From Laspinema palackyanum D2a (lineage in GTDB: Bacteria; Cyanobacteriota; Cyanobacteriia; Cyanobacteriales; Laspinemataceae): DNA of 53,718 bases. Of the stretch, positions 2,196-53,718 are shown one piece after another; position 1 is the stretch's first letter, and the number at the start of each line of letters is the position of its first letter. The DNA is taken from contig JAMXFF010000003.1 of assembly GCA_025370845.1 (NCBI GenBank), forward strand, positions 1-53,718, read 5' to 3'. Position numbers and translations under genes: made by a program. The notes beneath the pieces are model-generated. The model was not told the origin of the DNA. It was given only the letters and a program-made list of their open reading frames with translations, and made no database searches.

Positions 2196-3281
2196 TCAGG
2201 CAAACCCTAAAACTACCTCTTCATAGAGATAAGAGCGTTCCATCTCCATTAATCTAGCGCTCCATTCCCCATCCACGTGCAACGAGTGGCCCATCAGCGC
2301 CCCTAAATCATAATTGCCCTGGAGTCGGCGTCCGATTAAAGCGCCACCGGGATTTAAGTATTGCGTCATCTTGGCGATCGCACCCCCTAACTCATCAGGG
2401 GCCATCCCATCCCCAAAATTTGACATAGAAATCAGGTCAAATCCCCCCGCTTGACCGAGTTCCACCACTTTTTCTAAAAACTGTCCGCCATGCAGTTTGA
2501 GGCGCTGGGTACCCAGGGCCAAAATCGTCCCTTGGGCAAAATCTTGTAAATAAACCGGGACCCCTTTTAACCCCTCAGCGTAAGAATTGGCAAACAGTTG
2601 GGTCATAAAATAATTTTCCTGGGGAGGCATCTTATTGAGGGCTACCCCCAACCTCTGAGCAAAATGCTCCCCAAATGAAAGTCCCTGCCACCCCTTCACC
2701 GGAATTTCCCCAAACACCTTCACCAGTTCCTCCGGGGTGAAAATAGACTCAACCCAATCTTGCCATCCGGGATGAGCTAGACTTTGGGCTGGATTTTGTA
2801 GCGGATCCAATCCTAAAGCCGAAAATTGGGCCGATAACTGAGTCGTCAGGGTCTCAAATCGGCCCACCTGATTGATTCCCTCAGCAATCAGTTCGAGTCG
2901 CGCATCCCAGAAGGATAACGTCGCTTCTGGAAGATAGGGCCGTAATTCTTTGTAGAGGTCCAGTCGTTCCCGTGTCGTGGTGGTGCGATCGCCCCCAATC
3001 AGCGCCATCTGGTCCAATAATGGTAAGTGCAACAATGCCTGACGGCGCAACTCCACTAAATGCAACTGCGCCGGATTACTATCCACCGCTTCAATTTGTC
3101 CCACCATTGGTGACGCCAACAAACTCAACGCCGTGCAACCCCCAGAGGCAACCACTAAAACTCGTAATAAATTTTCCTGGCATTCTCCCAACCTTTCCGC
3201 AACCGAAAGTTCAATGCGAGGATCTTCGGGAACCTGAGAAAAACTGATTTCAGAGGCAGTGGAATTTTCTAAGCGCTGCAT
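2196..3281 (-). CDS. DUF3419 family protein (BtaA-like)
   Basis: The protein is 361 residues long and belongs to the DUF3419 family, which includes BtaA, the S-adenosylmethionine:diacylglycerol 3-amino-3-carboxypropyl transferase of betaine-lipid synthesis. A Rossmann-type SAM-binding segment near residues 40-80 reads LLRVLVVASGGCTALSLLA followed by an acidic strand end (EAVDSNP). The C-terminal part (FDLISMSNFGDGM, then NPGGALIGRR) is typical of the family. Betaine lipids are not standard cyanobacterial lipids, so the substrate here is uncertain. The ATG at 3281 is the first in frame. It is transcribed away from citramalate synthase and is separated from it by a 362-bp gap holding a hairpin repeat, so it probably has its own promoter. 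Confidence 0.8.
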   Translation of the reverse strand: MQRLENSTASEISFSQVPEDPRIELSVAERLGECQENLLRVLVVASGGCTALSLLASPMVGQIEAVDSNPAQLHLVELRRQALLHLPLLDQMALIGGDRTTTTRERLDLYKELRPYLPEATLSFWDARLELIAEGINQVGRFETLTTQLSAQFSALGLDPLQNPAQSLAHPGWQDWVESIFTPEELVKVFGEIPVKGWQGLSFGEHFAQRLGVALNKMPPQENYFMTQLFANSYAEGLKGVPVYLQDFAQGTILALGTQRLKLHGGQFLEKVVELGQAGGFDLISMSNFGDGMAPDELGGAIAKMTQYLNPGGALIGRRLQGNYDLGALMGHSLHVDGEWSARLMEMERSYLYEEVVLGFA

Positions 3282-3643
3282 GAGGGCTAAAATCCTAGAC
3301 GTTCAAGAATCACTTTAATTATTATTCCAGTCCCAGGCAACTATCGGACCGTCTGTGACAGTTTGACAAGTGACTGACCCCGTGATTCTCCCCCTTAATT
3401 TATTCTCTATCCAGAGATAGATTCCAAATTTGCCAACCTTCAGCACGGGAAAAAATACCCTAAAAAAAAGGAGTCAAGACAAGAGAGCAACTCACCTAAA
3501 CGCGATAAGGCAACTCCAAAAAATAAAATCCCCTCAACGTTCGTAGTAACTCCTTCAGGAGTTATCTTAAAGAAACCCCTGAAGGGGGGACGTTGAACGT
3601 TTGGAGGATTGATGTTTTTCCATCCCCTTAGTTGAATATCCTT
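3282..3643. other. Intergenic gap with a variant GTAG-hairpin repeat
   Basis: No gene is seen in this 362-bp gap. Positions 3540-3563 hold TTCGTAGT followed by AACTCCT, a TC loop and AGGAGTT. This is the same layout as the repeat found many times elsewhere in the window, but with two base pairs of the stem swapped together. A second short hairpin (CCCC, TGAA, GGGG) follows near 3577-3588. Confidence 0.6.
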
Positions 3644-5275
3644 CTAAGAAAGCGCTACCACTTCCTTACCTTGGGTTTGCAGAATTAACCCATATTCTAA
3701 TCCTTCCACCACCGCTTGATAGGAGGCTTCAATAATATTGGTAGAAACCCCAACCGTCGTCCAGCGTTGATGACCATTGCTCGATTCCACTAAAACCCGC
3801 GTTTTGGCAGAAGTTCCGGCCCCGCCATCCAGAATTCTCACCTTATAATCCGTGAGTTGGAAGTCAGCTAAAGCCGGATAAAAATTAACCAATGCTTTCC
3901 GCAATGCGGCATCTAAGGCGGAAACTGGACCATTGCCTTCAGCCGCTTCTAAAATATTTTTGCCATTCACTCCGACCTTGACTGTTGCCAAAACATTGGT
4001 CATGCCTTCGAGTTGTTCGCAATGGACGTGAAAGCCTTTAATTTCAAAAAACGTCTGGCGATCGCCGACTGCTTCATGCATTAACAATTCAAAACTCGCT
4101 TCCGCCGCCTCAAATTGATAGCCCTGATTTTCCAACTCTTTCAACTTCTCCAAAATCTGCCGACATTTTGGATCTTGTTTGTTCAGGTCAATCCCAAAAG
4201 TCGCCGCCTTTGCCAGAATGTTACTCATCCCGGCTTGGTCCGAAACCACAATTCGGCGCTTATTGCCGATTAATTCCGGTTGTAGATGTTCATAAGTTAA
4301 GGGATTGCGCTGGACCGCAGAAACGTGAATTCCCCCCTTATGAGCAAAGGCTGAAAGTCCAACAAAAGCGGCATGATCATCCGGGGCGAGATTGGCTACT
4401 TCGCTGATATAGCGACTGGTTTCCGTGAGTTTCACCAAGTGACTCGGGTCAATGCAATCATAGCCCAATTTAAGCTGAAGATTGGGAATTAAAGAGCAAA
4501 GGTTGGCATTGCCACAGCGTTCGCCATAGCCATTAATTGTGCCTTGAACCATGCGAACTCCTTCCAGAACCGCAGTTAGAGCGTTGGCAACAGCAGTTTC
4601 TGCATCATTGTGGGTATGAATGCCAAAATTGATAGGGATATCGGTATTTTGGCGGAGGGTTTGAATCACGGTGCGGGTGATTTGGCTGATTTCATGGGGT
4701 AGGGTGCCGCCATTGGTGTCGCAGAAAACAATCCATTCCGCACCGGCTGCGATCGCTGTTTCTAGGGTTTTTAGCGCATAAGTGGGATTGTGTTTATAGC
4801 CATCAAACCAGTGTTCGGCATCATAAATCACCTGTCGTCCCTGACTCCGCAAAAACTCAATGGTATCGCGGATCATCTCCAGGTTTTCTTCTAGGGTCGT
4901 ATTGAGTCCTTCAATCACATGAAGATCCCAGGATTTGCCAAAAATCGTTACCCAGCGCGTCCCGGCAGAGAGAATCGGCTGTAACATGGGGTCCTCTGCC
5001 GCAGTTTTTCCCGGACGCCTGGTGGAACAAAAGGCGACTGCTTCAGCGTTTTGCAGGGGTTCTTCTTGAAGTCTCCAGAAAAATTGGACATCCTTGGGAT
5101 TGGCCCCAGGCCATCCGCCTTCGATAAAAGGAACCCCCAGGCGATCGAGGCGGTGAGCAATTCGCAATTTATCCTCGATAGACAGCGACATCCCCTCGCG
5201 CTGGGAGCCATCTCTTAAGGTGGTGTCGTAGATCCAAATCCGGTTGGTGCTATCTGCGTTCATAGGTTTTGTCAT
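3644..5275 (-). CDS. cimA: Citramalate synthase
   Basis: This 543-residue protein belongs to the alpha-isopropylmalate/homocitrate synthase superfamily. Citramalate synthase condenses pyruvate with acetyl-CoA to citramalate, the entry to threonine-independent isoleucine synthesis. The TIM-barrel signature DTTLRDGSQREGMS lies near residue 17, followed by FGIHTHNDAETAVANAL (metal-binding HTHND) and GTINGYGERCGNANL. The last 130 residues form the regulatory LeuA-type dimerisation domain. The short LeuA-like paralogue is excluded by GGWPGANPKD and the overall length typical of the CimA clade. The ATG at 5275 lies inside a tandem TTGTCATTGGTCA repeat, so the second ATG at 5263 (MNADS) is an equally good start. 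The protein is cytoplasmic. Confidence 0.9.
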   Translation of the reverse strand: MTKPMNADSTNRIWIYDTTLRDGSQREGMSLSIEDKLRIAHRLDRLGVPFIEGGWPGANPKDVQFFWRLQEEPLQNAEAVAFCSTRRPGKTAAEDPMLQPILSAGTRWVTIFGKSWDLHVIEGLNTTLEENLEMIRDTIEFLRSQGRQVIYDAEHWFDGYKHNPTYALKTLETAIAAGAEWIVFCDTNGGTLPHEISQITRTVIQTLRQNTDIPINFGIHTHNDAETAVANALTAVLEGVRMVQGTINGYGERCGNANLCSLIPNLQLKLGYDCIDPSHLVKLTETSRYISEVANLAPDDHAAFVGLSAFAHKGGIHVSAVQRNPLTYEHLQPELIGNKRRIVVSDQAGMSNILAKAATFGIDLNKQDPKCRQILEKLKELENQGYQFEAAEASFELLMHEAVGDRQTFFEIKGFHVHCEQLEGMTNVLATVKVGVNGKNILEAAEGNGPVSALDAALRKALVNFYPALADFQLTDYKVRILDGGAGTSAKTRVLVESSNGHQRWTTVGVSTNIIEASYQAVVEGLEYGLILQTQGKEVVALS

Positions 5276-5801
5276 TGGTCATTTGTCATTGGTCATTGGA
5301 CAGGGGAGATGGTGAGGCTGTTCGTAGTAACGACTTCAGTCGTTCTCCCTCTTAGTTCGTAGTAACGACTTCAGTCGTTCTCCCTCTTAGTTCGTAGTAA
5401 CGACTTCAGTCGTTCTCTTCATTTCGTAGTCACGACATCTTGCACCATTCTCAACACCGGCGGGGGATAAATCCCCCGCCTAATAGCTCAAGTCGTCTAA
5501 AGACGACTGCAAGTCTTATCCCGTGGTGTTTTCAGTCGGATTTATCCGACTTTAGCTGTTAGGCGGGGGATTTATCCCCCGCCGGGTGTCTGGAGGATCC
5601 GGACCGGGGTGCGTTACTTGGCGTCCGCCAAGTAACGCGGTAACGACTGAAGTCGTTACTACAAACAATCTCCCCCATCCTCCCCATCCTCCCCATCCTC
5701 CCCATCCTCCCCCATCCTCCCCATCTCCCCCATCCTCCCCATCTCCCCCATCTCCCCAAAAAGTGTAAAAATAGAGAGTGAAATGCTTTGAGTCAGTTGA
5801 G
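5276..5801. repeat. Composite inverted-repeat element
   Basis: This gap holds nested repeats and no gene. Three copies of TTCGTAGT plus hairpin AACGACTTCAGTCGTT start at 5321, 5356 and 5391 (35-bp period); a decayed copy begins at 5423. Two 22-nt hairpins with stem GGCGGGGGAT lie at 5459-5480 and 5562-5583, within 34-bp outer inverted arms (about 5455-5488 and 5555-5589). Inside them are 8-bp hairpins at 5491-5508 and 5534-5551. A perfect 13-bp hairpin (GCGTTACTTGGCG) is at 5611-5638, an inverted copy of the GTAG repeat follows near 5641-5665, and a C-rich minisatellite (CCCCATCCT units, G-quadruplex-capable on the minus strand) runs from 5670 to 5757. The ferredoxin start follows at once, so its promoter must lie in or near this element. 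Confidence 0.8.
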
Positions 5802-6140
5802 ATGCCAAAAGTAGAAGTGGCGGGAAAGACCTTACAGTGCGATCGCGGGGCTAATCTCCGGCAGGTTTTGTTAGACAATGGAATTGACCTGTACAATGGC
5901 AAGGCCAAATTGATTAATTGCCGGGGCCTGGGTAGTTGTGGAACTTGTGCGGTGGAGATTGAAGGGGAAGTCTCGGCTCCCAATTGGCGGGACCGAACTC
6001 GCCGATCGCTCCCTCCTCATTCTCCCGCAAAAAATCTCCGATTAGCTTGTCAAACTCAAGTTTTAGGTGATGTAAAGTTGACAAAATATGACGGGTTCTG
6101 GGGACAAGGGGAAAATCCGGTCTGGACAGCAGAAGGTTAA
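5802..6140 (+). CDS. [2Fe-2S] ferredoxin-like protein
   Basis: This is a 112-residue soluble protein with a beta-grasp ferredoxin fold. The cluster cysteines are visible as C40, C46, C49 and C83. The spacing C-x5-C-x2-C, then about 33 residues to the last Cys, differs from the C-x4-C-x2-C of the major photosynthetic ferredoxin PetF, so this is one of the alternative cyanobacterial ferredoxins. Its electron partner cannot be read from the sequence. The ATG at 5802 (MPKVEVAG) starts the conserved fold; an upstream in-frame GTG at 5778 adds eight poorly supported residues. It sits directly after a C-rich repeat element and is followed by a 209-bp gap before thiO-thiG. Confidence 0.85.
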   Translation: MPKVEVAGKTLQCDRGANLRQVLLDNGIDLYNGKAKLINCRGLGSCGTCAVEIEGEVSAPNWRDRTRRSLPPHSPAKNLRLACQTQVLGDVKLTKYDGFWGQGENPVWTAEG

Positions 6141-6349
6141 GGCTAGAACCGCATTGATTATTAAGAATTAATAATTTCAAGGCAGTTTTTTCTCAGATTG
6201 GCAAAGCATTCGTCTAAATTATATCCTGCTTTCTTCGGATTCATTAAACACCACGGCGTGCCATATCTAGTAAAAATTTAACCTAATCTTCGGGATTGCA
6301 ACTTGACAAAAACCCTATTTTTATAAAAAAAAATTACCCTAATTTTTTA

Positions 6350-8329
6350 ATGAAGACATCAAGCGACATCATTATTATTGGCGGTGGCATTATCGGTCTC
6401 TCCATTGCCATTGACCTGAAACTGCGCGGGGCATCGGTGACGGTTTGTACGCGATCGCTACAGGAGGGAGCCACCTATGCAGCAGCCGGAATGTTGGCCC
6501 CACAAGCGGAGGCGATTCCCCCGGGACCGATGCTGGATTTGTGCTTGCGATCGCGATCGCTCTATCCGGACTGGATTAGCAAAATAGAAGACCTCAGCGG
6601 CGTCTCAACCGGCTATTGGCCCGGGGGTATCCTCGCCCCGGTTTATGAACCCACCCCACCGGGGACACCCGCCCCTCTGGATTCAGGATTTCCCGCGACT
6701 TGGGTTGACAAATGTCACCTGGACCTGTATCAACCGGGTTTAGGTGAGGCGGTAGTTGGCGGGTGGTGGTATCCCGAAGATGGACAAGTGGATAATCGCG
6801 CCCTTGCCAATGCGTTATTAAAGGCAGCGCGAGAATTGGGAGTGGAGATTCGCGAGGGTGTCATCCTTGAGGGGATTATCCAGCGACAACAGCAGGCAGT
6901 CGCTTTGCGGACAAATCAGGGAGAATTACACGCCTCCCATTATGTCCTGGCAACTGGGGCCTGGAGTCATCAACTCCTGCCGATTCCGGTTCATCCTAAA
7001 AAAGGGCAGATGCTGTCGGTGCAAGTCCCACAGAATTCCCCGGTGCCCCCTCTAACTCGCGTCTTATTTGGACCTGAAACCTACATCGTTCCGCGACGGG
7101 ATGGCCGAATTATTATCGGTGCCACCAGTGAGGATGTGGGGTTTACTCCGGGTAACACTCCTGGGGGAATCCAACTCTTGTTAGAACGGGCGATGCGACT
7201 CTATCCAGTGCTGGCGGATTATCCGATTAGTGAATTTTGGTGGGGATATCGACCGGCGACCCCGGATGAATGGCCGGTTTTGGGTCCAAGTGCGATCGCC
7301 CATTTAACCTTAGCCACGGGGCACTATCGCAACGGTATTTTACTCGCACCGATTACCGCTGCCCTGATTGCTGATTGTATTCTCCGGGAGAATACTGATC
7401 CCCTACTGCCACACTTTAATAGTCAGCGATTTTTGACCTCATCTCCTCAACCAAACCCATCTACCATGACTAATTCTCTCACCTACGCCACTGCCAAACC
7501 CTCTGTCCCTTCTCCGGAATCTTTGTTACAGCAGTTAGATCAACCTGTAACCATTGCGGGGCGATCGTTCCAGTCGCGCTTAATGACTGGGACGGGCAGA
7601 TATCGGTCAATGGAGGAAATGCAGCACAGTATTATCGCCAGTGGTTGTGAAATCGTGACCGTGGCGGTGCGTCGGGTCCAAACCAATGCACCGGGACATC
7701 AGGGATTAGCCGAGGCGATCGACTGGAATAAAATCTGGATGTTGCCGAATACTGCGGGATGTCAAACTGCTGAGGAAGCGATTCGGGTAGCCCGATTGGG
7801 TCGAGAAATGGCTAAACTTTTGGGCCAAGAAGATAATAATTTTGTCAAATTAGAGGTGATCCCCGACCCGAAATATCTGTTACCGGACCCGATCGGGACC
7901 TTGCAAGCGGCGGAACAATTAGTCAAAGAAGGGTTTGCAGTGTTGCCTTATATTAATGCGGACCCGATGTTAGCCAAGCGCTTAGAAGAGGTGGGCTGTG
8001 CTACAGTGATGCCTTTGGGGTCACCGATTGGGTCGGGACAGGGAATTAGTACCGCTGCGAATATTGCGATTATTATTGAGAATGCTCAAGTGCCGGTGGT
8101 GGTGGATGCGGGGATTGGAGTGCCTTCCGAGGCAGCTTTGGCGATGGAGATGGGGGCGGATTTGGTCCTAATTAATAGCGCGATCGCCCTCGCCCAAAAT
8201 CCCGCAGCAATGGCAAGGGCTATGGCCCAAGGGGTAGAAGCCGGACGTCTGGCCTATCTCGCCGGTCGTATTCCCATTAAATCTGCCGCTAGTGCGAGTT
8301 CACCCCTCACGGGCACGATCGCCCCTTGA
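6350..8329 (+). CDS. thiO/thiG: Glycine oxidase ThiO - thiazole synthase ThiG fusion
   Basis: This 659-residue fusion makes the thiazole half of thiamine. The ThiO part (about 1-365) is an FAD-dependent glycine oxidase giving iminoglycine: it has the dinucleotide-binding GGGIIG at 11-16, [12 protein letters not shown], and the C-terminal [15 protein letters not shown] and [13 protein letters not shown]. The ThiG part (about 394-659) is a TIM barrel that joins iminoglycine, deoxyxylulose phosphate and ThiS-thiocarboxylate; the Schiff-base lysine is K500 in [10 protein letters not shown], with the phosphate-binding GIGVPSEA and INSAIA near the end. Fusion of the two is known in cyanobacteria and could channel unstable iminoglycine. 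An in-frame ATG at 7466 (residue 373) in the linker could mark an ancestral thiG start. The ATG at 6350 was chosen over an upstream TTG at 6296. No TPP riboswitch pattern was seen upstream. Confidence 0.93.
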
Positions 8330-8513
8330 TAGATAGAATTTCCCCCCCTCTATCTGTAGGGTTACTCAAGACATAGACATCGGGTTTCTGGACCTTGCTG
8401 GCAAAACCATCAGAAATGTTGTCAAGAAACCCGGTTGTCTTCCCGTTCCTGTACCCAGGTTTTTGGAGAGGAGTCGGGGAACTGGCGAAAAATGCCTCAA
8501 CCGAATGATTGCC
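8330..8513. other. Intergenic gap with GGGTTTCT/AGAAACCC hairpin repeat
   Basis: This short gap lies between convergent genes. CGGGTTTCT near 8380 and AGAAACCCGG near 8422-8433 are inverted arms of a repeat type common in cyanobacteria; related AGAAATCCGG and AGAAACCCGG arms occur near 24.47-24.53 kb. A GATAGATAG / CTATC imperfect stem directly after the thiG stop (about 8329-8360) might end that transcript, but it lacks a T tract. Confidence 0.4.
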
Positions 8514-8555
8514 CCAAAAAAAGCAAATCGCTAGAGGCTGTAGCCCATAGCGATT
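8514..8555 (-). terminator. Rho-independent terminator of the PEP-CTERM gene
   Basis: On the minus strand the arms AATCGCTA and TAGCGATT (8526-8555), with an inner GGC/GCC pairing, form a hairpin that is followed within three bases by a run of seven T. It lies 45 bp past the stop of the PEP-CTERM gene, the right place for its terminator. Confidence 0.7.
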
Positions 8556-8599
8556 GACCTATTAAAAGCTAGTTTACGATCACCCTAGCTGATCAATCC

Positions 8600-9256
8600 C
8601 TAGCAGGAGGTCGATTTGCGACGACGAGACAGAGAGAGTCCACCACCAACTACAGCCAAACCGAGGAGAGTAGCGGGTTCAGGAACTGGGGTGACGGGGG
8701 GAACTGTGGTGCCGCCACTGGCAACAAAGATAGAGGCGTGAGATAAATCCTGAGCGGTACGATCACCAGTCTTCTTATCGAGGTTGAACGATACACCTAT
8801 AGTGTCGAAGATTCCTTGCAAACCAGTGCTGGTGAAATCAATGTCTTTGAAGAGATAGGTACTATAATAGCCAGCCGTTTTGAGGCTCAGGACAAAGGTG
8901 CCGCTGCTGATAGCATTCAGCAAACTCCAATCGCCGCTATTTTCGTCTTGGTCGGCACTCAACCAGCTCCCGGCATCATCAGACTTTGCACCTAAAGACC
9001 AGGTTGTACCAGGAGCCACCAAATCTTTGAATGCAATATTGTCATTTAAGTCGCTGAGTAATGTACTCTTGCTTCCTGTGTCATTACCTTCAAAGGCTCC
9101 TTCACAAGCGGTAGCCGGAATATTCCCTAATAATACATCCGTAATACTACAGATTCCTGCGGTGCTTGCTGCAGCTGCCGGGGCAACGGCAATCATGGAA
9201 ACGAACCCTGTGGTGACTAAAGCAGAACCTAATACGGTAGAAAAATTAAGTTTCAT
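8600..9256 (-). CDS. PEP-CTERM sorting domain protein
   Basis: This is a 218-residue exported protein of unknown role. Residues 1-29 form a signal peptide ending in an Ala-rich site (VAPAAAAS). The C-terminus has the exosortase signal: VPEPATLLGL, a short hydrophobic helix, then SRRRKS. PEP-CTERM proteins are cut and sorted by exosortase and are often tied to exopolysaccharide or sheath. The middle (about 30-185) is Ser/Thr/Asp rich, like many secreted repeat-free proteins of this class, and two Cys (C36, C51) could pair. No exosortase gene is in the window. The start ATG is preceded on its strand by an AGGAGG-like site (GGACCACTAGGAGGGTTTGC). A 1.2-kb gap with repeats lies upstream. Confidence 0.85.
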   Translation of the reverse strand: MKLNFSTVLGSALVTTGFVSMIAVAPAAAASTAGICSITDVLLGNIPATACEGAFEGNDTGSKSTLLSDLNDNIAFKDLVAPGTTWSLGAKSDDAGSWLSADQDENSGDWSLLNAISSGTFVLSLKTAGYYSTYLFKDIDFTSTGLQGIFDTIGVSFNLDKKTGDRTAQDLSHASIFVASGGTTVPPVTPVPEPATLLGLAVVGGGLSLSRRRKSTSC

Positions 9257-10020
9257 CTGAGCAAACCCTCCTAGTGGTCCTTATGTATCTGAATCTGGCG
9301 TGCGATGGTAGGGAAGTTCGTTTGTTATTGCCTGTTCCCCTTATGCTTTTTAGATTAACAACCCCGTGAGAACTTGTCTATACTCACTAGCCTAACTTTA
9401 CTAAGGCTTTATAAAGACGATACCCGGTGTAAAGTTGCGTTGAAGCGCTCCCCAAATTGGTTTGGGTTCAGACTGCCGCCATTGTTTCAAGAAGACCCAC
9501 AATCAGAGCTGAGTCTCCATAGCCCAGGGTCGCTCTGGCATTCCTTCCTGATACTCAAAGGACTAAAGCATCCTTGAACTTTTGCTCTACAGGTATCCCA
9601 ATTACCGGAATCATACCCTATCCCTATGGGAATCACACCCTATCCGGGGTACCTAGCTTTTTTTAACGGCAACCGAGGCTGAAGATTTTCCATTCAGTGT
9701 TCTTCCCCTCTTCCTTGGCTAAAGGTCCCCGCTTTGTCCTGGGGTTCGGAATATTAAATAAGGCTACCTATAGCTTTTTTTAGATAACTTCGCCTGATGA
9801 TCCGACGGAAATCAAGAGCCTAGCCTTTATACATACTTGGGGTATTTTGTCAAGGGGGTGTGAGGAGATTCTCTACTCCGATATGAACTGCGAGGCAATT
9901 TCCAACCCTTGATGGGACACGAAGCCAATGATTAAGTAGAGAGGGTTCTTAAATTTGGCTTCGGGATTGGCAATACCTAACACTCTCTCTATCTATAACG
10001 ATAAGGACCGGGCAGTGTTC
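9257..10020. promoter_or_regulatory. Long upstream region of the PEP-CTERM gene
   Basis: There is no convincing gene in this stretch. Two 17-nt direct repeats, GGAATCATACCCTATCC at 9607-9623 and the same with one change at 9629-9645, are spaced 22 bp, two helical turns. That spacing is typical of a tandem activator or repressor site. They lie about 350 bp upstream of the PEP-CTERM start, so a role in its control is only a guess. AT-rich tracts near 9655-9790 could hold promoters. Confidence 0.35.
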
Positions 10021-10023
10021 CCA

Positions 10024-10370
10024 GAGGTCTGGGGGAGATGGGGAGGATGGGGAGGATGGGGAGGATGGGGAGGATGGGGTTCATGTTCGTAGTAACGACT
10101 TCAGTCGTTTCCTCTTGTTCGTAGTAACGACTTCAGTCGTTTCCTCTTGTTCGTAGTAACGACTTCAGTCGTTTCCGCGTTACATGGCTTAGGCCCTGTA
10201 ACGCTCTCTTGGAGGCTCTACCTCCAGTCCCCAAGCAGGTAGGTGGTAGACTCTTCCATTGCTCGTGTCATGGCGATCGCCATGACACGAGAGCAACGAC
10301 AGCAAGTCGTTACTACGAACAATCTCCCCCATCCTCCCCATCTCCCCCATCTCCCCCATCCTTCCTCCAA
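10024..10370. repeat. Composite inverted-repeat element, second locus
   Basis: The layout resembles the element at 5.3-5.8 kb. A G-rich minisatellite (10031-10079, GGGGAGGAT units) is followed by three GTAG-hairpin copies at 10086, 10118 and 10150 (32-bp period). A 28-nt imperfect hairpin GCGTTACA...TGTAACGC lies at 10177-10204, and a perfect 30-bp palindrome at 10262-10291 (half CTCGTGTCATGGCGA) has a HIP1 octamer at its centre. Next come one inverted copy of the GTAG repeat (10295-10319) and an inverted C-rich minisatellite (10322-10366). The two outer tracts are inverted relative to each other, as in a MITE-like or BIME-like unit. Confidence 0.75.
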
Positions 10371-10470
10371 GATGTGGTTGTCCATAAAATTGATGATGAT
10401 TCCGGGATCAATCTTTGCCGCCATCTGGTAGAGTAAAATTAGGTAGGTAGAAAGACTGAGGTTTTAACAA

Positions 10471-10650
10471 ATGCCCTATAGTGAAGATGAAGGCGGATTG
10501 CTCAATAATTTTGCAAAAGAGCCGAAAATGTACACCGCCACCCCTCCAACGACCACGGAAAAACGGAACTACGCGGTCCAGGCGGTTTTGGGCCTTTTAT
10601 TAGTCAGCGGTTTATTGGTCTTAACGGCCTTGATTTCTAACCTCAGCTAA
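10471..10650 (+). CDS. psb34: Photosystem II assembly protein Psb34
   Basis: This 59-residue protein is easily missed because it is so short. It starts MPYSEDEGGLLNNFAKEPKM, the conserved front of the cyanobacterial Psb34 family (Synechocystis Ssl1498), and ends in one membrane helix (about residues 34-55, AVQAVLGLLLVSGLLVLTAL). Psb34 binds CP47-containing photosystem II assembly intermediates at the thylakoid and is thought to take part in the change from HLIP-bound to mature forms. A TAAAAT box near 10434 is a candidate -10 element. It stands alone, with a repeat element on each side. Confidence 0.87.
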   Translation: MPYSEDEGGLLNNFAKEPKMYTATPPTTTEKRNYAVQAVLGLLLVSGLLVLTALISNLS

Positions 10651-10941
10651 TTAGAACAGCCTTTTTGAACCTCTTTTACGAACTGGGGGAGACGACTGAA
10701 GTCGTCACTACGAACAAAGCAAGAGATGACTGAAGTTGTTTCTGAATGTTTGTAGTAACGACTTCAGTCGTTTCTTCTGGCAATTTGTCCGGACGATCGC
10801 CCAGGTGTTATCCCTCCTGAACCTTTGAGGAACTCCTGGAAAGAGTATCTGTTCACGCCGACTTTGCCTCTGGAGTTAAGTGTTCAGTCTACCCTCGGCA
10901 GAGTTTGTATCCTTATGCCCTGCACTCGTGATCCTGATACG
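10651..10941. repeat. GTAG-hairpin repeats between psb34 and the TPR gene
   Basis: An inverted copy at 10691-10714 has the stem GACGACT/AGTCGTC, in which the outer A-T pair of other copies is changed to G-C on both sides. A forward copy follows at 10749-10772 (TTTGTAGT then AACGACTTCAGTCGTT). The rest of the gap shows no clear promoter; part of it (10825-10941) is open in frame with the next gene from a TTG. Confidence 0.65.
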
Positions 10942-13146
10942 ATGATCGTAACGGATATTCTTCCCCTAACAGTTTTGGACGTTAATCGGCAAACCTACAA
11001 GCAGCTTAAACTGGCGCTGAGTCTGAATTTACGCCGTCAAGTCTTTGTGGCGGTCTGTGATGACTTGCCTCTGCGAAACCGCTTGGCAAAAGGTTTAGCT
11101 GCGGATTTGAAAGCAGATTGTGAAAGCGGGGAAGTCCCGGAGAATGGCGGGGGGAAAACTCGCCAATCGGAATATCCTCGATTGGTCAGTTTGGAGTTAA
11201 ATCTTCAGGACCCCAATCCAGTCGCCCAAATTGAGGCATGGATCACTCGTCATCCTCTACCGGATCCGCGATCGCCTTTGCCAGTGTTTCAGGTCCTAGG
11301 ATTAGAAAAATTAACCAAGGCGACTCCTACGGTGCAATGGTCGTTTTTGGCGGATTTAGAGGCGAGTGAGGCCCGCTTGAGTGATCCAGGCGATCGCCTG
11401 TTTTCTTGTAGTATTTTACTCTGGGTCTCCCGTCCCTGGGGTCGAACCATTGCCCAATCTGCACCCCAATTTTGGCACTGTCGCACGGGACTCTTTGAGT
11501 TTGAAGGCGAACCCACCCCCGTCGCCCAGTCTCCAGAGTACAGTCAAACCACCATTGAAGCATCCCCCGTCATCCCCCGGTTACCCCAGGAAAATCCCCC
11601 ACCACGACCATTACTCCCATTAGAACAATCCCACCGAGAGACAGAAGGCGACTACCGCCCCCTAAAAACCCCCACCCCCCTACTCACCGCCCCATCCCCC
11701 GTATCCCCCTCATCTCCCCCATCCCCCCTATCCCCCCCATCTCCCCCCAAACCTCCAGCAAAGCTGGTGGAATTAGTCTGGGCCACAGTTAATGCACGAA
11801 TCAGCGCCGATGTCAAGGCAGAAGTAGTGCCTTCTGGGTCCAATGCTCTCCCCCTGCAACTGTTGGAACAGGTGGAACATCTGCACTGTAGCGGGACCTC
11901 TCGGGGGGAACTGGCCCATGCTTATGTAAAATTGGGGTCGTTTTATCGGGATGGGTTATCCAAGGGGAATGGTGGGAGTCAAAATGGGGCGACAGTCGCC
12001 CCGGAGTTGTTGCCGCAATATCTGACCCTGGCGATTCTGGCGTATGAAGAGGCGATCGCCTTGATGGAGAAGGATGCGCCGGAGTGGGGGGATTTGGCGA
12101 ATGACTTGGGAAATTGTCACTGGATGCGATCGCGCTATCAATCGCAACCGCAGGAGAAACTACCGGACTTATTCCAGGCCGTTGAACTCTATCACCAGGG
12201 GTTGCAACATCTGGATGTCCAGGCCCAACCCTCTGTCTGGGCGCGGATTCAAAATAATTTAGGGGCAGTCTATAGCGAATTGGCCCGGTATCAAGACCGT
12301 CAGGAAAATTTACAGCGTTCCATCCTGGCCTACCAACAAGCCTTAGACTATCGCAAGGGGGAACCCGGTGGGGATATGCGGCCTTATGCGGCGACTCAGA
12401 ATAATTTGGGAACCGCCTATTGGAACTTGGCCCAACATCGGGATGCGGTGCAGAATTTAAAACAAGCGGTTTCGGCCTATAGTGAAGCGTTGCGTCATCA
12501 CTCGCGATCGGAACAACCCCTAGAATATGGGATGATTCAAAATAATTTGGGGACAGCCTATTGGAATTTAGCGCAATATGAACAACCCAAAGATTATCTG
12601 ATGCTGGCGATCGCCGCCTATCAGATTGCTTTAATGTATCGGACAAAACAGACCGTTCCGGCGGCTCATGCTGCGAGTCAAAATAATTTAGGAACCGCCT
12701 ATTGGCATTTGGCCAATCACTCGCAATCGGAACCGGAACTGCGGGCGGAATTTTTACAAGAGGCGATCGCCGCCTACGATGCCGCCATTACCTTGGGAGA
12801 AACCCTCTGTCACCAGGCCGGGAGTCAGTCTTCTCCCTCAAAAATACTAGCCTTTGACTTGATTGCCGCTCATACCAACTTGGGATTGGCTCATTATCAA
12901 CTGGTGACCCAAACCAATGCCATCCCCGATGCCACCTGCCGCGCTCAACATCTCCATGCCGCCCTGGATCATTATATCCAAGGGGCGACTGCCACTCAAG
13001 ACCAACCGGAACGCCATCAAAATGCCTGGGCCTATATTGTCCAAATTGTCCGCACTATTTATGGGGAATTTGGCATTGAGGGCCAAACTCGGGCATTATC
13101 GCGAGTCCCCGGTTCCCTGTTAAGCGAACTCATGCGCCGCTTGTAA
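10942..13146 (+). CDS. TPR protein with degenerate STAND-like N-terminus
   Basis: From the ATG at 10942 the protein has 734 residues. The first ~190 (RRQVFVAVCDDLPLRNRLA, then ILLWVSRPWGRTIAQSAPQF, FWHCRTGLFEFEG) look like the core of STAND-type ATPases found in front of TPR arrays, but there is no Walker A GxxGxGKT where it should be, so nucleotide binding is doubtful. Next comes a Pro/Ser linker (SPSSPPSPLSPPSPP) encoded by the C-rich minisatellite. The C-terminal half has kinesin-light-chain-like TPRs with four near-identical openings (QNNLGTAYWNLAQ). A protein-interaction scaffold is the safest call. The start is uncertain: TTG 10825 and ATG 10915 are also in frame, but the conserved block seems to begin at MIVTDILPLTVLD. 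Confidence 0.75.
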   Translation: MIVTDILPLTVLDVNRQTYKQLKLALSLNLRRQVFVAVCDDLPLRNRLAKGLAADLKADCESGEVPENGGGKTRQSEYPRLVSLELNLQDPNPVAQIEAWITRHPLPDPRSPLPVFQVLGLEKLTKATPTVQWSFLADLEASEARLSDPGDRLFSCSILLWVSRPWGRTIAQSAPQFWHCRTGLFEFEGEPTPVAQSPEYSQTTIEASPVIPRLPQENPPPRPLLPLEQSHRETEGDYRPLKTPTPLLTAPSPVSPSSPPSPLSPPSPPKPPAKLVELVWATVNARISADVKAEVVPSGSNALPLQLLEQVEHLHCSGTSRGELAHAYVKLGSFYRDGLSKGNGGSQNGATVAPELLPQYLTLAILAYEEAIALMEKDAPEWGDLANDLGNCHWMRSRYQSQPQEKLPDLFQAVELYHQGLQHLDVQAQPSVWARIQNNLGAVYSELARYQDRQENLQRSILAYQQALDYRKGEPGGDMRPYAATQNNLGTAYWNLAQHRDAVQNLKQAVSAYSEALRHHSRSEQPLEYGMIQNNLGTAYWNLAQYEQPKDYLMLAIAAYQIALMYRTKQTVPAAHAASQNNLGTAYWHLANHSQSEPELRAEFLQEAIAAYDAAITLGETLCHQAGSQSSPSKILAFDLIAAHTNLGLAHYQLVTQTNAIPDATCRAQHLHAALDHYIQGATATQDQPERHQNAWAYIVQIVRTIYGEFGIEGQTRALSRVPGSLLSELMRRL
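11690..11750 (+). repeat. C-rich minisatellite inside a coding sequence
   Basis: CCCCCATC- and CCCCTATC-type units like those of the intergenic tracts at 5.67 and 10.32 kb occur here in frame and encode a Pro/Ser linker. The minus strand has more than four runs of four or more G. Confidence 0.65.
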
Positions 13147-17151: not shown

Positions 17152-17430
17152 AAATCACCGCTAGAGATGTAAGTATTTCGATATTTTCGTTCAAACTTGG
17201 GCCAGCTCGTGACTGCCTAATTGCCTAACCATAACTTATCCCGTTACCCTACCAACCCCCTGATTGCGATACATCGCTGATAGGCCACTGGCAGTGGTTT
17301 GAAGGCTCCTCAGAATTAGCGGAGTAGGAGCATTTTGCTCCCTCTAAGTAGTAGGGAGCAAGATGCTCCCACTCCTGTGTAAAAATTGTCCAATTTCTAC
17401 AAGCCGCGTTCCATAAAATACCCCTATTAA
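17152..17430. repeat. Tandem GTAG-hairpins (GGAGCA/TGCTCC type)
   Basis: GTAG at 17324-17327 is followed by the stem GAGCA, loop TTT and TGCTC (17328-17340). GTAG at 17351-17354 is followed by GGAGCA, loop AGA and TGCTCC (17355-17369). The whole block 17321-17375 is also a 23-bp inverted repeat with two mismatches. This is a second REP-like family, distinct from the AACGACT one. The rest of the gap shows nothing. Confidence 0.6.
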
Positions 17431-36212: not shown

Positions 36213-39200
36213 ATGAACAACCAACTCAGGGCGATCGCATCTCTACTCCTCCTCTCCTATCTAACTGGAACCGCAAACCACACCCATGCACAACCCATCA
36301 CCCCTGCTGCCGATGGCACCGGCACAATTGTCAATCCCGATGGACAACAATTTAATATTGAAGGGGGACAACGCTCCAAAGATGGTGCAAATTTATTCCA
36401 TAGTTTTGAACAGTTTGGACTCGATGCCGGACAGGTTGCCAACTTCCTCTCCAACCCCGATATTCAAAACATTTTAGGACGAATTACTGGGGGAGATGCC
36501 TCCATTATTAACGGATTAATTCAACTCACCGGCGGCAATTCTAACCTCTACCTCATGAACCCTGCCGGGATATTATTTGGACCCAATGCTCAGTTAAATG
36601 TCCCCGCTGACTTTTTCGCCACCACTGCCACGGGAATCGGATTCAGTGAAGGCAATTGGTTTAATGCCGTAGGCGATAATTCTTGGTCCAACCTAATCGG
36701 AACCCCCTCTCAATTTGCCTTTTCCACCCTCCAACCCGGTGCAATTATTAACCAAGGAAACTTAACCCTAGAACCGGGTAAAAACCTCACCCTATTAGGC
36801 GGAACCCTCCTCAACACCGGCACTTTATCTGCCCCGGGAGGCAATATAACCATTGCAGCAGTTCCCGGAGAGAGTCTCGTCCGGATTTCTCAAGAGAATC
36901 ACCTCTTAAGTTTAGACATCAGAACCGGCATATCCGGACTAGAACTTCCTACCCCTCAATCTTTACCCGAATTGCTAACAGGTTCGGGGGTAACTCATGC
37001 CAATCAAGTCACTGTTAACCCGGACGGAAGCGTACAGTTATCCAGTTCAGAAATTCCCATTCAAACCCAAACTGGAGATAATATTGCCGCAGGAACTATC
37101 ACCACCTCCCAAGGACAAATTGCCCTCTTAGGAAATCGAGTTGCTGTCATTGATGCCGATATCAACGCATCGGGAATCAATGGCGGAGGGACTATCCTCA
37201 TCGGCGGTGACTATCAAGGAAATGGCTCAATTCCGAATGCGGTACAAACTTTTATTAGTCCCAATACCACCATTCATGCCGATGCCATAGAACGCGGAAA
37301 TGGGGGACGAGTCATTATTTGGGCCGATGAAACCACCCAATTCTTTGGCAATATTAGCGCAAAAGGTGGCACAGAATTCGGAGATGGCGGATTTGTAGAA
37401 GTTTCAGGATTAGAGTTTTTAGAATACCAAGGTCAAGTTGATACCTTTGCCCCCAATGGAAACCTCGGCACTTTATTATTAGACCCTACCAATATAGAAA
37501 TAGTTGCCCCAGGGACAGGCGAAACAACTGATTTAACTGATGTCGATGAAGCTTTTGCCGACCCTGATATAGGTATTGGAGAGACGACTAGATTAGACGT
37601 AACCGCTATCAATGATGCAACCGCTAACGTCATCTTACAAGCTACTAATGACATTACTTTTAATGCGGCTATTGATAATCAGAATTTAGGAGTAGGGCTA
37701 ACTGCTGAAGCTGGAAGTGATATTCAAGTCAATGCCGATATTACCCTGAATCAAGGTGATATTAACTTAAGTGCAGGGGGTGGAATTGTCATTAACACTG
37801 CCAGAATTAATACTGGGGGAGGGGATTTCACCGCAACGGGGACGAGGAATGTTGCTACATTCCGTGAGGGAATTTATCTTAATGAGGGGGTTATAAATGC
37901 TGCCGGGGGAAATATTAACCTCACAGGCAAGGGATTTGATGATATTAACACTAGCAATAACTATGGTATCTTTCTTGACAATAACAGTAGGGTAGAGACC
38001 ATCGGCAACGGTATGATTACTTTAGAAGGCACCGGTGGTAACGGCATTGATGGAAACACCGGCATATTGATTGATACAAGTACAATAGTTTCAGGGAACG
38101 GAAATATCACCCTCACGGGCATTGGCGGCGGCACGGGACAAATCAACAGAGGCGTTAGTCTTCAGGGTGGTAGCATTGTAGAATCCACCGGAGGGAAGAT
38201 CGCCATCACAGGCAGAGGCGGCACTGGCACAAATGAGAACATCGGGATATTTGTTAGTGTAGAAACAAACGTATTAGGAAACGGAGATATCAACTTTACA
38301 GGCACTGGTGGCGACGGCACGGGAGAATTAAACCTAGGTGTTTCTCTTCAAAATGGCAGCATAGTGGAATCCACCGGAGGGGTGATCTCCATCACAGGTA
38401 TTGGCGGCACTGGCATAGATAGGAACTACGGGATATTAGTTGGTACAGAGACAGGGACTAGCACAATTATTAAGTCAGGGAACGGAGATATTACCCTCAC
38501 TGGTATCGGCGGCACAGGCGGACAACTCAACCGAGGCGTTAATCTTATAGATGGCAGCAGAGTGGAATCCACAGGAGGGGCGATCGCCATCGAAGGCAGA
38601 GGCGGCACTGGCAGCAATCTCAACACTGGGATAGTTGTTGATACCGGCACAACCGTATTAGGGAAAGGAGATATCACCCTCACCGGCACTGGTGGCGAAG
38701 GCACGGGACAATACAACCAAGGTGTTACCCTTGAAGGTGGCAGCAGGGTGGAATCCACAGAGGGGGCGATCGCCATCGAAGGCAGAGGCGGCACGGGCAC
38801 GTTTGGAAACCTCGGGATATTTGTTGATAGCACAACCCTATTCGGGAAGGGAGATATCACCCTCACTGGAAACGGTGGCAACGGCACGGAACAACAGAAC
38901 GCCGGTGTTGGCCTTAGTAATAGTATTGTATCTACAGGTGGGACAGTCACCATCGAAGGCAGAGGCGGCACTGGCACCAATGAGAGCATTGGGATAGGGG
39001 TTAATAACACAACCACCATATTCGGGAGCGGAAATATTATTCTCACTGGCAGTGGTGGCGACGGCACCGGACACAATAACCAAGGTGTTCGTCTTCTAGG
39101 GGGTAGCATGGTGCAATCCACAGGGGGGGCGATCGCGATTACAGGTAAGGGTGGTAATGGGACGGAGGGAAATCATGGTGTATTAATTGACAACACCATC

Positions 39201-42200
39201 TTAAATGCTGAAAATGACGATATTAATATCCGAGGTACTGGAAACGGTACAGAGCTATTAAATACAGGTATTTGGGTGCGTAATGAAAGCAAAGTATCCA
39301 CGAGTACCGGAAATATTAATTTAGAGGGAGAGTCTTTCAATGGGCTTGACAATAACGATGGGATAATGATAGAAGATATAGAAATTGTTTCGGTAGAGGG
39401 CGATATTAAATTACGGGGAACCACCAATGGTTTAGGAAGTTTAAATGATGGAGTTCATTTACGTCATACAGTAATGAGAACAAGTGGAGAGGGCATTATC
39501 CAAATAGAAGGATTTGTAAATTCAGGGTTAGAAAATAATGATGGAGTAGTAGCTAGTAATAATGTTGCAATAACTGGATCGGAAATTACAATTCGAGGAA
39601 TTAGTGCTGGAACAGGAGAAAGTAATCAAGGGGTTGCTCTCGAAAATGACATTGAGGTAACAACCGAGGGTTATTTATCAATTAGAGGAGAAGGAGGAGC
39701 GGGAACTAATAATAATCATGGCATTTTACTAGATAACAATGTTACTGTGCTATCTAAAACCGGAAGAATCTATCTGGAGGGAATAGCCAATGGTACCGAA
39801 TTGAATAATATTGGTATTAATTTTGAAGCCAACAGCACGGTGCAATCCAACGGGACTGAACCTATTATTTTTGAAGGTTTGAGTAGAAATGGGGAGCAAG
39901 GGATTGTATTGAATAATAGCTTTATCAACCCGATGGGAACTGGCAGTGGCGATGTCATTCTCCGCAGTAACGATATCCGCCTCATGGGGGAAACTCGCAT
40001 TTTTACAAATGGTATGCTCACTTTAGAACCGATCGCCCCCGGTCGTGATATTTCCATCAATAATACTACCGCCGAGTACGATATCACTACCGAAGAATTG
40101 CTGATGTTAGAAGTTCCCCGTGGCATTCTCACCCTGGGTTCGGAAACAATCGGCAATATTTATCTCGGTTCTTTAGATGAAACCATTGACCTTAGTGATG
40201 CTAATTATGACCTGAGTCTGAAAACGGGTCAAGGGATTTATGTCAATGGAGGCATTATTGCAAATACCCGGAATCTGACCCTAGAGGGAGGGGTTAATCT
40301 TGTCAATCCTGCGACATTTACCACTAATTCGGGGAATATTACCTTTACGCAGACTATTGATGGAAACTCTAATTTTACTTTAAATTCGGGCAGCGGCAAT
40401 ATCACTATCGAGGGGGCTGTAGGCAGTCAATCAGAGTTAGGTAACCTCACCATTTTGAATGCCAACAATGTCACAACTGAATCTATAACCGCCACAAGTT
40501 TGACTCAATTGGCGGGGACAGGAAGCACAATCTTTAACGGCGAAATTGTGACAACTGGCGCAAATGGGATTAATCTGACCACCAATCAGATGAGGTTTAA
40601 TGCTCCGATTACGACAACGGGAGGCGGTGGCGTAACCCTGGACAATGCAGAAGTTTTAGAAATTGCTGCACCTTTGAATTTAGAGGGTGCTTTCCAGCAA
40701 ACTAGCATGGGAAGCGTCATCCTCAACAGCGAAATTACAACCAACCATCATAATATCGAGTTTACTGCACCTGTCACCCTAACCGGAGCGGCGAGTTTAA
40801 ATGCTGGAACCGGGGGGTTAGTTTTTACTTCTCCTCTGGATGCGGGGAATCATCCCCTCACCTTAACTGCCGGACAAATTGAGTTTAATGGACCCGTTAC
40901 TGGAAGCAATACTCTGACGTTGCAACCGGCAACAACGACCCAGAATATGACTCTGGGGGATAATAATTTGGACGCAGAAAGCTTACATCTAACCCGCACG
41001 GAGTTGGAGTATATCCAAGATGGATTCACCTCCATTACCTTGGGACGTCCTGACTCATCGGGGACGATTTCTATTGTTAATCCTCTGACATTTCTGGACC
41101 CGGTGGCGATAGAAGCAGGTTCGGGGATACTGGTGGTGAATGGGACGCTTACGGGTTCAGATAATGCCTCTCTTGCTTTGAATGCGACTACCATTAAGCT
41201 AAATTCTGATAGGATCACGGCGCATAATGATATTGCTTTGACTGGAAATGTAATTCTGGGAACTGATATTAATCTCAACACGAATAGCGAAGGGGGTGAT
41301 ATTACCGTTGTTGGAAATATTGATAGCGATTCGGGCAATATGCCGCTCCGCAATTTAACCTTAAATGCCGGAACAGGTGCGATTAATCTCAGGGGAAATT
41401 TGGGGAACGGGACGCCGTTACAGAGTGTAACGGTGACGAGTGACAGGGGGACGGTTCAAGGAAATGTGACGACCGATGGAGGGGATATCACCTTTAATGG
41501 TGCGATCGCCCTCGCTGAAGCGCTACAACTCTCGACAGGAGAAGGTGGGGGAAATATCACCTTTGCTGGAACTGTTGACAGTGAGACGAACCAGGGGCAA
41601 AATTTGACCCTGAGTGCCGGAACTGGGGCGATTATGTTTAACGATGCCGTAGGCAGTCTGCAACCCTTGGGTAATTTGGATATATTGAATGCCGGAAATA
41701 TTACGGCATTGGATACAATATCAGCAGCAAGTTTCCGCGCCTTGAGTAGCGGAACGATTACGCTGCAAGGGAACTTAACCACCACTGCTGCACTGGGAGT
41801 CCAAATCCAGTCTGAAAATCTGCTGACTGTTGCTGATATGACAACTAACGGACAACCGCTAAACCTGGAAAGTCAAACTGCAAGGGTCACTACTGGTAAT
41901 TTAGATACATCTTCTGCCACCACGGGCGGAGCAATTACACTCACCAGTAAGAAAGGGGAAATTACTACCGGAAATCTCACCGCATCCGGGGTAACCCAGG
42001 GGGGAGATATTACTATCATTGCTGAAATTGCCATTACTGCTGGAGAGATTGACTCCAGTGCCACCCTCGGAGATGCCGGGAATGTATTCCTGGACCCGAT
42101 TGGGGATATCCAAGTTTCCTGGATTAACGCACAAGGGGGAACAAATGGTACAGGCGGTGACGTATTTATCCAAACCACCGGGGGATATTTCCGTGCTAGG

Positions 42201-53446: not shown

Positions 53447-53463
53447 ACAAATCCCCTCCCCAT

Positions 53464-53718
53464 TTCAACGTCCCGACTTCAGTCGTTATCTTTTTTTATG
53501 TTCGTAGTAACGACTTCAGTCGTTATCTTTTTTTATGTTCGTAGTAACGATTTCAGTCGTTATCTTCTCTTATGTTCGTAGTAACGACTTCAGTCGTTAT
53601 CTTCTCTTATGTTCGTAGTAACGACTTCAGTCGTTATCTTTTCTTATGTTCGTAGTAACGACTTCAGTCGTTATCTTTTCTTATGTTCGTAGTAACGACT
53701 TCAGTCGTTATCTTTTCT
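53464..53718 (+). repeat. 37-bp-period array of GTAG-hairpins, cut by window end
   Basis: Units start at 53501, 53538, 53575, 53612, 53649 and 53686, with a decayed first unit at 53464. Each has TTCGTAGT, then AACGACT, loop TC and AGTCGTT, then an ATCTTTT/CTTATG tail that is also conserved. The third-from-edge variants differ by single bases only. The array runs beyond the end of the window. Confidence 0.9.

Follow-up and report, generated by a model that had tools for sequence, protein, structure and literature searches.

GTAG-type REPs in a cyanobacterial genome: a probable RAYT partner, unusual arrays and a second repeat head

It has been recognized for some years that GTAG-headed REP elements and the TnpA-REP (RAYT) proteins associated with them are not confined to the enterobacteria. 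In the classification of Quentin et al. (2018, PMC6006769), TnpA-REP subclass 2.8 is made up of Cyanobacteria, with eight proteins in Table 1, and related sequences in other phyla are already noted there from nr. Among the repeats themselves, REP dimers inside long palindromes are described from Anabaena variabilis (PMC3733652). In E. coli, genomes with a RAYT are reported to hold more REPINs (PMC8049555), and the structural literature gives CT as the cut site of TnpA-REP and 4er8 as the structure of the E. coli protein (PMC8266576). A preliminary description of the DNA studied here had proposed that its GTAG-headed hairpins form a REP-like family and had treated the step from enterobacteria to this genome as inference; with cyanobacterial GTAG REPs and subclass 2.8 both in print (PMC3733652, PMC6006769), that step has published precedent. 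The window analysed here, a stretch of 53,718 nucleotides, makes up contig C63 in a cyanobacterial genome of 7.41 Mb, which we label G000. We consider it very probable (about 0.92) that its repeats belong to the GTAG-type REPs and that a domesticated IS200/IS605-like RAYT, encoded at C44:210716-211309, uses them as its hairpin substrate in single-stranded form.

The repeat unit and its copies in the window

The repeat unit has three parts: GTTYGTAGT, a stem of 6 bp carrying a TTCA loop, and a tail resembling TCTT. In the window TTCGTAGT occurs 16 times against 0.93 expected, a number that none of 100 shuffles reaches, and AACGACTTCAGTCGTT with up to three mismatches gives 31 matches on the two strands against 0.37 expected. 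The whole genome holds about 1,120 copies of the unit; exact 24-mers number 632, and the reversed pattern gives 0. A search of the window against Rfam returned no match, and neither did a literature search by the exact repeat sequence. The unit was described in a sample of 61 stretches, 1.25 Mb in all (the window and L114-L173). A census of every perfect 6-bp stem with a loop of 3-5 on both strands of this sample yielded 3,526 hairpins, and GTAG is the strongest tetranucleotide at a one-base offset before them, standing ahead of 220, which is 31.5 times expectation. The copies are extragenic, since 8 of 217 fall inside open reading frames of at least 120 aa, which together make up 76% of the sample. 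When the lowest-coordinate copy of each of 69 clusters was profiled, the conserved span ran from the GTTY preceding GTAGT through a T/C-rich CTT behind the hairpin, with GTT at -4 to -2 at 0.96-0.97 and C at -1 at 0.71, and no position beyond the span exceeded 0.31 bits. The head is therefore more conserved than its flanks, as the preliminary description had expected of a REP, with the reservation that GTAGT itself was required by the search. In a second profile, each run was instead represented by its actual 5' and 3' ends; CT starts 0-2 nt behind the hairpin at 63 of 119 run ends, where 18.7 are expected.

The suggestion of compensatory stem changes had come from two copies, and both are as it stated. 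The copy at 3540-3563 reads TTCGTAGT-AACTCCT-TC-AGGAGTT and differs from AACGACT/AGTCGTT in two stem pairs, on both sides, while the copy at 10691-10714 (minus strand, GACGACTTCAGTCGTC) has the outer A-T swapped to G-C. In place of R-scape, covariation was assessed by permuting the 3' arms and by sliding the partners. Within the genome, rows picked by the GTAGT head and the loop only numbered 234, of which 200 are paired throughout; removing 16 that had fewer than three pairs, and keeping one row per distinct stem per cluster, left 96. Their stem changes comprise 76 compensated double, 4 uncompensated and 15 one-sided changes, and shuffling the 3' arms of the same rows gives a mean of 15 compensated and a maximum of 30. 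Across species, 412 of 515 cells are paired in 103 distinct stems, against a shuffle mean of 206 and a maximum of 243. Sliding the partners brings pairing to 0.20-0.30 across species from a true value of 0.83, which includes a C-G pair fixed by the search, and to 0.20-0.33 in the genome itself from 0.59 (38 stems, chance rows included). The hairpins thus belong to a REP-like family whose stems covary both within the genome and across phyla, and the covariation check proposed for them was passed at both levels. The same cannot be said of the hairpins at 17324-17369, which had been linked to the GTAG family; one copy does follow GTAG, yet GTAG precedes just 3 of 16 such hairpins in the sample, and we do not count them as members.

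The copies in the window form arrays and composites that differ between the genomes of the genus. At site B (5320-5666), a plus-strand head-to-tail array (5320-5446) with three intact copies (heads at 5320, 5355 and 5390; period 35) and a decayed one at 5423 is closed by an inverted REP at 5642-5666 (minus strand; body 5642-5657, head GTTTGTAGT on that strand). This composite is also found in G005 and G006; G003 has an array at a contig end, G007 a decayed REP-like remnant only, and in G001, G002 and G004 the aligned region showed none. At site C (10085-10320), a plus-strand head-to-tail array of three copies with a period of 32 (10085-10173) is closed by an inverted REP with a variant loop (10295-10320, minus strand); the composite is inverted in G005 and represented by REP-like remnants only in G002 and G007. 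Further along, a minus-strand REP at 10691-10715 has G-C as its outer pair (GACGAC/GTCGTC), a plus-strand REP at 10748-10772 combines the head GTTTGTAGT with an AACGAC stem, and a degenerate copy (10725-10740) lies between them. The 10691 site was located in five congeners: G002, G005 and G006 retain its copy intact, whereas that of G007 is decayed and that of G004 reduced. Finally, a plus-strand array of six head-to-tail copies with a period of 37 occupies 53500-53709, preceded by the 5'-most copy of the end array at 53463-53487 (plus strand), which carries the second head TTTCAACGTC; the contig ends inside the array at 53718. The ends of C4, C5, C6, C10 and C27 also lie in or beside REP arrays, so that array lengths and copy numbers are probably underestimated. 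No perfectly clean empty site was found in the window, where sites B and C lie amid other repeats that differ between species, a point against the RAYT explanation.

Several other repeats were noted in the window. Tandem tracts of nine bases, GGGGAGGAT / ATCCTCCCC, occur at 77-110, 5673-5758, 10032-10079, 10322-10361 and 11669-11749, and several of them adjoin REP composites and vary between congeners. Palindromic cargo common to congeners (e.g. GGCGGGGGATAAATCCCCCGCC) lies between facing REP arrays at 5457-5585 and 10175-10294. A large open reading frame (36213-44327, 2,704 aa) contains internal repeats of about 190 and 384 bases at 38091-39200.

The RAYT gene and REP numbers across genomes

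A Y1-transposase gene of the RAYT type, for which the preliminary description had recommended a search, is present in the genome. The Pfam Y1_Tnp model hits two places, a broken IS200-like TnpA gene (C94:154440-154782) and a 198-aa open reading frame (C44:210716-211309), the latter the sole full-length copy. This protein scores 96.9 bits against the NCBIfam model NF047646, 'REP-associated tyrosine transposase' (cut-off 80). A PDB sequence search with it gives a single match, the TnpA-REP 4er8 (E=9.5e-9), which is also the top fold match of its predicted model (mean pLDDT 81; TM 0.54/0.64). Five forward REPs, the outermost with an AACG head, lie on one side of the gene and five inverted REPs on the other, so that the same repeats face each other across it. 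The protein has NHYH at N84-H87, W125 followed by Y, and YIHYNP at Y145-P150. In 24 aligned sequences, query included, NHYH and YIHYNP are invariant and W is followed by Y, F or H. Judged by these motifs and by its length against Table 1 of the published classification (PMC6006769), the protein carries the marks of subclass 2.8, to which we would assign it. G000 and G003 have the gene between one and the same pair of neighbours, with which the flanking genes in G006 are consistent. G001 retains both neighbours and two REP remnants without the gene, which looks like gene loss. Two further RAYT kinds were seen in the genus: a fragment with a stop (G000:C62:5241-5327, L227) beside GTAG-GGTGGGC-aat-GCCCACC hairpins, and a RAYT-like gene at L225 (G003:C446) and L214 (G005:C328) near GTAG(G)GGCGATTC-ga-GAATCGCC hairpins.

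Relatives of the protein are accompanied by similar hairpins elsewhere. Among the best 80 of 343 relatives in the genome collection, surveyed initially with both head and apex demanded, 67 have a GTAGT-hairpin with a CTTYAG apex within 1 kb; REPs lie on both sides in 47 and are absent in 13, and the reversed-sequence control gives 0. REPs at these 80 loci reach 1.92 per kb close to the gene, and at distances over 1.5 kb their density falls to 0.067 per kb; a simple motif search finds NHYH in 75 of the loci and YIHYNP in 76. When the loci were re-tested with one feature demanded and the other left free, the apex proved to be CTTYAG in 173 of 194 under a fixed head, and the head GTAGT in 173 of 196 under a fixed apex. 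That the two co-occur whichever is demanded, while the stem letters vary widely, suggests, in a form open to testing, which features the enzyme recognizes. The records that supplied these relatives are titled Chloroflexi, Planctomycetes and others, and MAGs are numerous among them.

Across the order, REP number tracks the RAYT, with exceptions. At E 1e-20 or better, 37 of 243 genomes have a RAYT and 206 do not; the median REP count is 58 with the gene and 4 without, and more than 500 REPs are found in 7 of the 37 against 1 of the 206. Within genera holding both kinds, compared by mean, the RAYT side has the higher count in 13 of 14 (sign test p=0.0009). The exceptions run both ways: the REP count exceeds 50 in 19 of the 206 RAYT-less genomes and is 18 or lower in 11 of the 37 RAYT-bearing ones. 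In the genus, three genomes with an assembled RAYT hold 1,119, 1,290 and 797 REPs, and four RAYT-less genomes hold 78-209. In G005, with 1,083 REPs, no RAYT was found, but two contigs end exactly at either side of the RAYT locus, so the state of the gene there cannot be told. Intact REP bodies make up 155 of 219 in the G000 sample and 25 of 47 in RAYT-less G004 (p=0.025), a comparison to which we give no weight as a sign of decay after RAYT loss because the choice of stretches in G004 had in part been guided by REP hits. The eight genomes of the genus nevertheless amount to a natural experiment, with three carrying the RAYT, four lacking it and one broken at the locus. This contrast makes it possible to ask how a RAYT affects its repeats when the host is photosynthetic, a test that would reach outside the few gamma-proteobacterial systems studied so far.

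Arrays, the element around 3540 and the second head

Another feature of these repeats is their arrangement. The 144 pairs of neighbours no more than 400 nt apart comprise 111 in head-to-tail order, 23 with GTAG outside (HH) and 10 with GTAG inside (TT), and tandem runs of two or more hold 146 of 225 copies. For neighbours within 60 nt, the head-to-tail share is 93 of 114 here; in two further genomes rich in REPs it is lower, 25 of 49 in the sample of G210 and 7 of 20 in that of G014. Consecutive runs within 2 kb of each other (59 pairs) have GTAG outside in 36 cases, GTAG inside in 14 and the same direction in 9. Head and stem are intact in 0.80 of single tandem REPs, 0.79 of paired ones and 0.78 of isolated ones. 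With neighbour pairs mostly head-to-tail (111 of 144), the inverted doublet of a REPIN is not the main form. Nor do these resemble CRISPR arrays in their spacers, which from a hairpin end to the next GTAG are mostly 10-16 nt and partly identical rather than long and unique. The long head-to-tail arrays would most likely lengthen as a REP is duplicated locally together with its spacer, either through replication slippage or through strand transfer into the CT behind a neighbouring REP. Identical spacers in 24% of pairs within one array, against 0.8% between arrays, fit plain tandem repeats made by slippage with no part for the RAYT in their growth, and for REPIN arrays the literature holds that host replication amplifies them locally (PMC8049555). 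The recurrence of the same spacers in unlinked arrays and the fact that REP-rich genomes are mostly RAYT-bearing speak against this, neither decisively. The arrays could be purely host-made duplications, a reading to which we give somewhat less than an even chance.

The copy at 3540 is no stray array member. It belongs to an inverted REP pair, of which it forms one arm, and the pair lies within a MITE-like element of about 120 bp (3506-3630) that is flanked by TA and has imperfect outer inverted arms. The plus-strand REP (3539-3568; stem AACTCC/GGAGTT) comprises the head GTTCGTAGT at 3539-3547, the hairpin at 3548-3563 and the tail ATCTT at 3564-3568. Its minus-strand partner (3574-3598) has a CCCC stem, with the body at 3574-3589 and the second head GTTCAACGT at 3590-3598. 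Such inverted pairing is typical of the CCCC/TCC-stem subfamily to which 3540 belongs, and 18 similar elements, this one included, were aligned from the 1.25-Mb sample. In G006 the orthologous partner carries GTTCGTAGT, so that the element has GTAG heads on both arms and the head switch at 3598 is seen in place between G000 and G006. G005 is without the element almost exactly, save one extra base, and other congeners diverge more widely at this position. Many of the 18 elements share their outer arms and end in TA or TTA at the joints, and TA duplication is linked to transposases of the IS630/Tc1 type. It is nearly an even question whether the element is a MITE of such a TA-targeting transposase that carried its REPs along, with the 3540 copy not placed by the RAYT; the almost empty site in G005 agrees with that. 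Against it, the 3.3-kb locus of the sole PF13358 gene in the genome contains neither of the outer-end words AGGGNATT and GGAGTTNCC, and REP dimers in long palindromes have been described from cyanobacteria in an account whose relevant passages name no mover (PMC3733652).

The second head itself is recurrent. In 199 cores of CGACTTYAGTCG, the GTAG head is present in 174 and AACG occupies the same place in 16, other heads being scattered; the block GTAGTAA is replaced by AACGTC(C/A) on the same hairpins. AACG heads occur in all eight genomes of the genus examined (reversed control 0). The four genomes rich in REPs have 88, 94, 75 and 40 of them, the four poor in REPs 15, 15, 12 and 10, and 400 kb taken from G210 and G014 showed none. 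These heads sit on several stem types and form arrays of their own. By eye, they occur first, last, alone and in the middle, and we therefore dropped any positional rule within arrays. In the aligned elements of the 3540 type, AACG on the CCCC arm with GTAG on the TCC arm is found in 6 of 18, and the opposite layout in 0 of 18. If the two 7-nt heads GTAGTAA and AACGTC(C/A) were interchangeable and AACG were a second guide for the same RAYT, they would act like the differing left-end and right-end guides of IS200/IS605 elements, and some REP pairs would be true two-ended transposons. We regard this as unlikely: relative to GTAG copies, AACG heads are no commoner in REP-rich genomes (about 4-9%, against 7-18% in REP-poor ones), and the AACG head breaks two outer stem pairs.

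Origin of the repeats and comparison with known systems

The anatomy of the unit, the covariation of its stems, a RAYT with signature residues and REP flanks, and the tracking of REP number with the gene argue together for a GTAG-REP/RAYT system. The repeats combine a GTAG at the hairpin foot, high copy number, extragenic location and compensatory stems with a REP-flanked RAYT. By analogy with other TnpA-REPs, the RAYT would bind the single strand in its folded form, contacting the GTTYGTAGT head and the CTTYAG apex, GTAG would serve as guide, and the protein would cut at the CT beside the hairpin and paste the piece elsewhere. Stem letters that are free yet paired fit recognition of shape, apex and head, not of the stem letters.

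Two other origins have to be weighed against this. Because ordinary IS200/IS605 insertion sequences share the HUH/Y1 fold family and the genome holds the broken IS200-like TnpA, the repeats might be the ends or MITEs of such an element, moved by its own TnpA. This is most improbable. The REPs flank the RAYT-type gene, of the two Y1_Tnp loci the one whose flanks were examined, and that gene passes the REP-transposase equivalog model. It is a single full-length copy in G000, not a multi-copy mobile transposase, with the same neighbours in G000 and G003 and consistent ones in G006, and G001 keeps both neighbours and REP remnants where the gene is gone. We also consider it very unlikely, if a little less so, that the hairpins are host elements, such as terminators or RNA-stability structures, selected by the host without transposition. 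Their extragenic position (8 of 217 in open reading frames) would suit such elements, and gaps between convergent genes are somewhat favoured (18 of 62 clusters against 101 of 598 gaps). Five end-array sites satisfy a loose terminator rule where 0.4 are expected, and REP hairpins account for 4 of the 9 terminator-like sites in 3000-11000, a region in which shuffles also give about 9 (8.8). These matches raise the odds of host elements a little. However, a terminator side effect of mobile REPs, which the copies fitting the rule make possible, would leave the same signs. A GTAG head has no terminator role, copy number goes with the presence of a RAYT, RAYT genes of many phyla have such hairpins clustered around them, and the window has no Rfam match, all of which favour REPs served by a RAYT.

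Compared with the subclass 2.8 REPtrons (PMC6006769), the gene described here has about the same length (their proteins are given as ~199 aa), the same NHYH, W[YH] and YIHYNP motifs and a proline-rich N-terminus, and likewise occurs as one copy flanked by long canonical GTAG REPs; relatives reach Chloroflexi, Planctomycetes and other groups by record title, beyond the entries of Table 1. By description, the repeats resemble families GTAG-12, -15 and -16 of Di Nocera et al. (2013, PMC3733652) in the GTAG tag, the 6-9 bp stem, the TY loop, the compensatory subfamilies and, as in A. variabilis, REP dimers nested in palindromes. Head-to-tail arrays, rare according to that survey, hold the majority of sampled copies here. 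As with the REPINs of Pseudomonas fluorescens SBW25 (Bertels and Rainey 2011, PMC3116915), the repeats are RAYT-linked and form tandem clusters that include flanking sequence; there, however, the inverted pair is described as the unit and single REPs as decaying, whereas here tandem singles are as intact as paired copies. The E. coli TnpA-REP (4er8) and those of S. maltophilia and Marinomonas (PMC8266576) share the HUH fold, GTAG beside the hairpin and CT at the presumed cut site. REPs of E. coli need a bulge according to the same source, and the stems here are perfect, as in its group-3 systems. In summary, one cyanobacterium holds a domesticated transposase and more than 1,000 copies of a mobile repeat, with the same hairpins on both sides of the gene. 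Its AACG heads and head-to-tail arrays are concrete puzzles for testing enzyme recognition, and among known systems it is a cyanobacterial GTAG-REP/RAYT system of an already known kind, by its motifs that of subclass 2.8, set apart by its unusual arrays and its second head.
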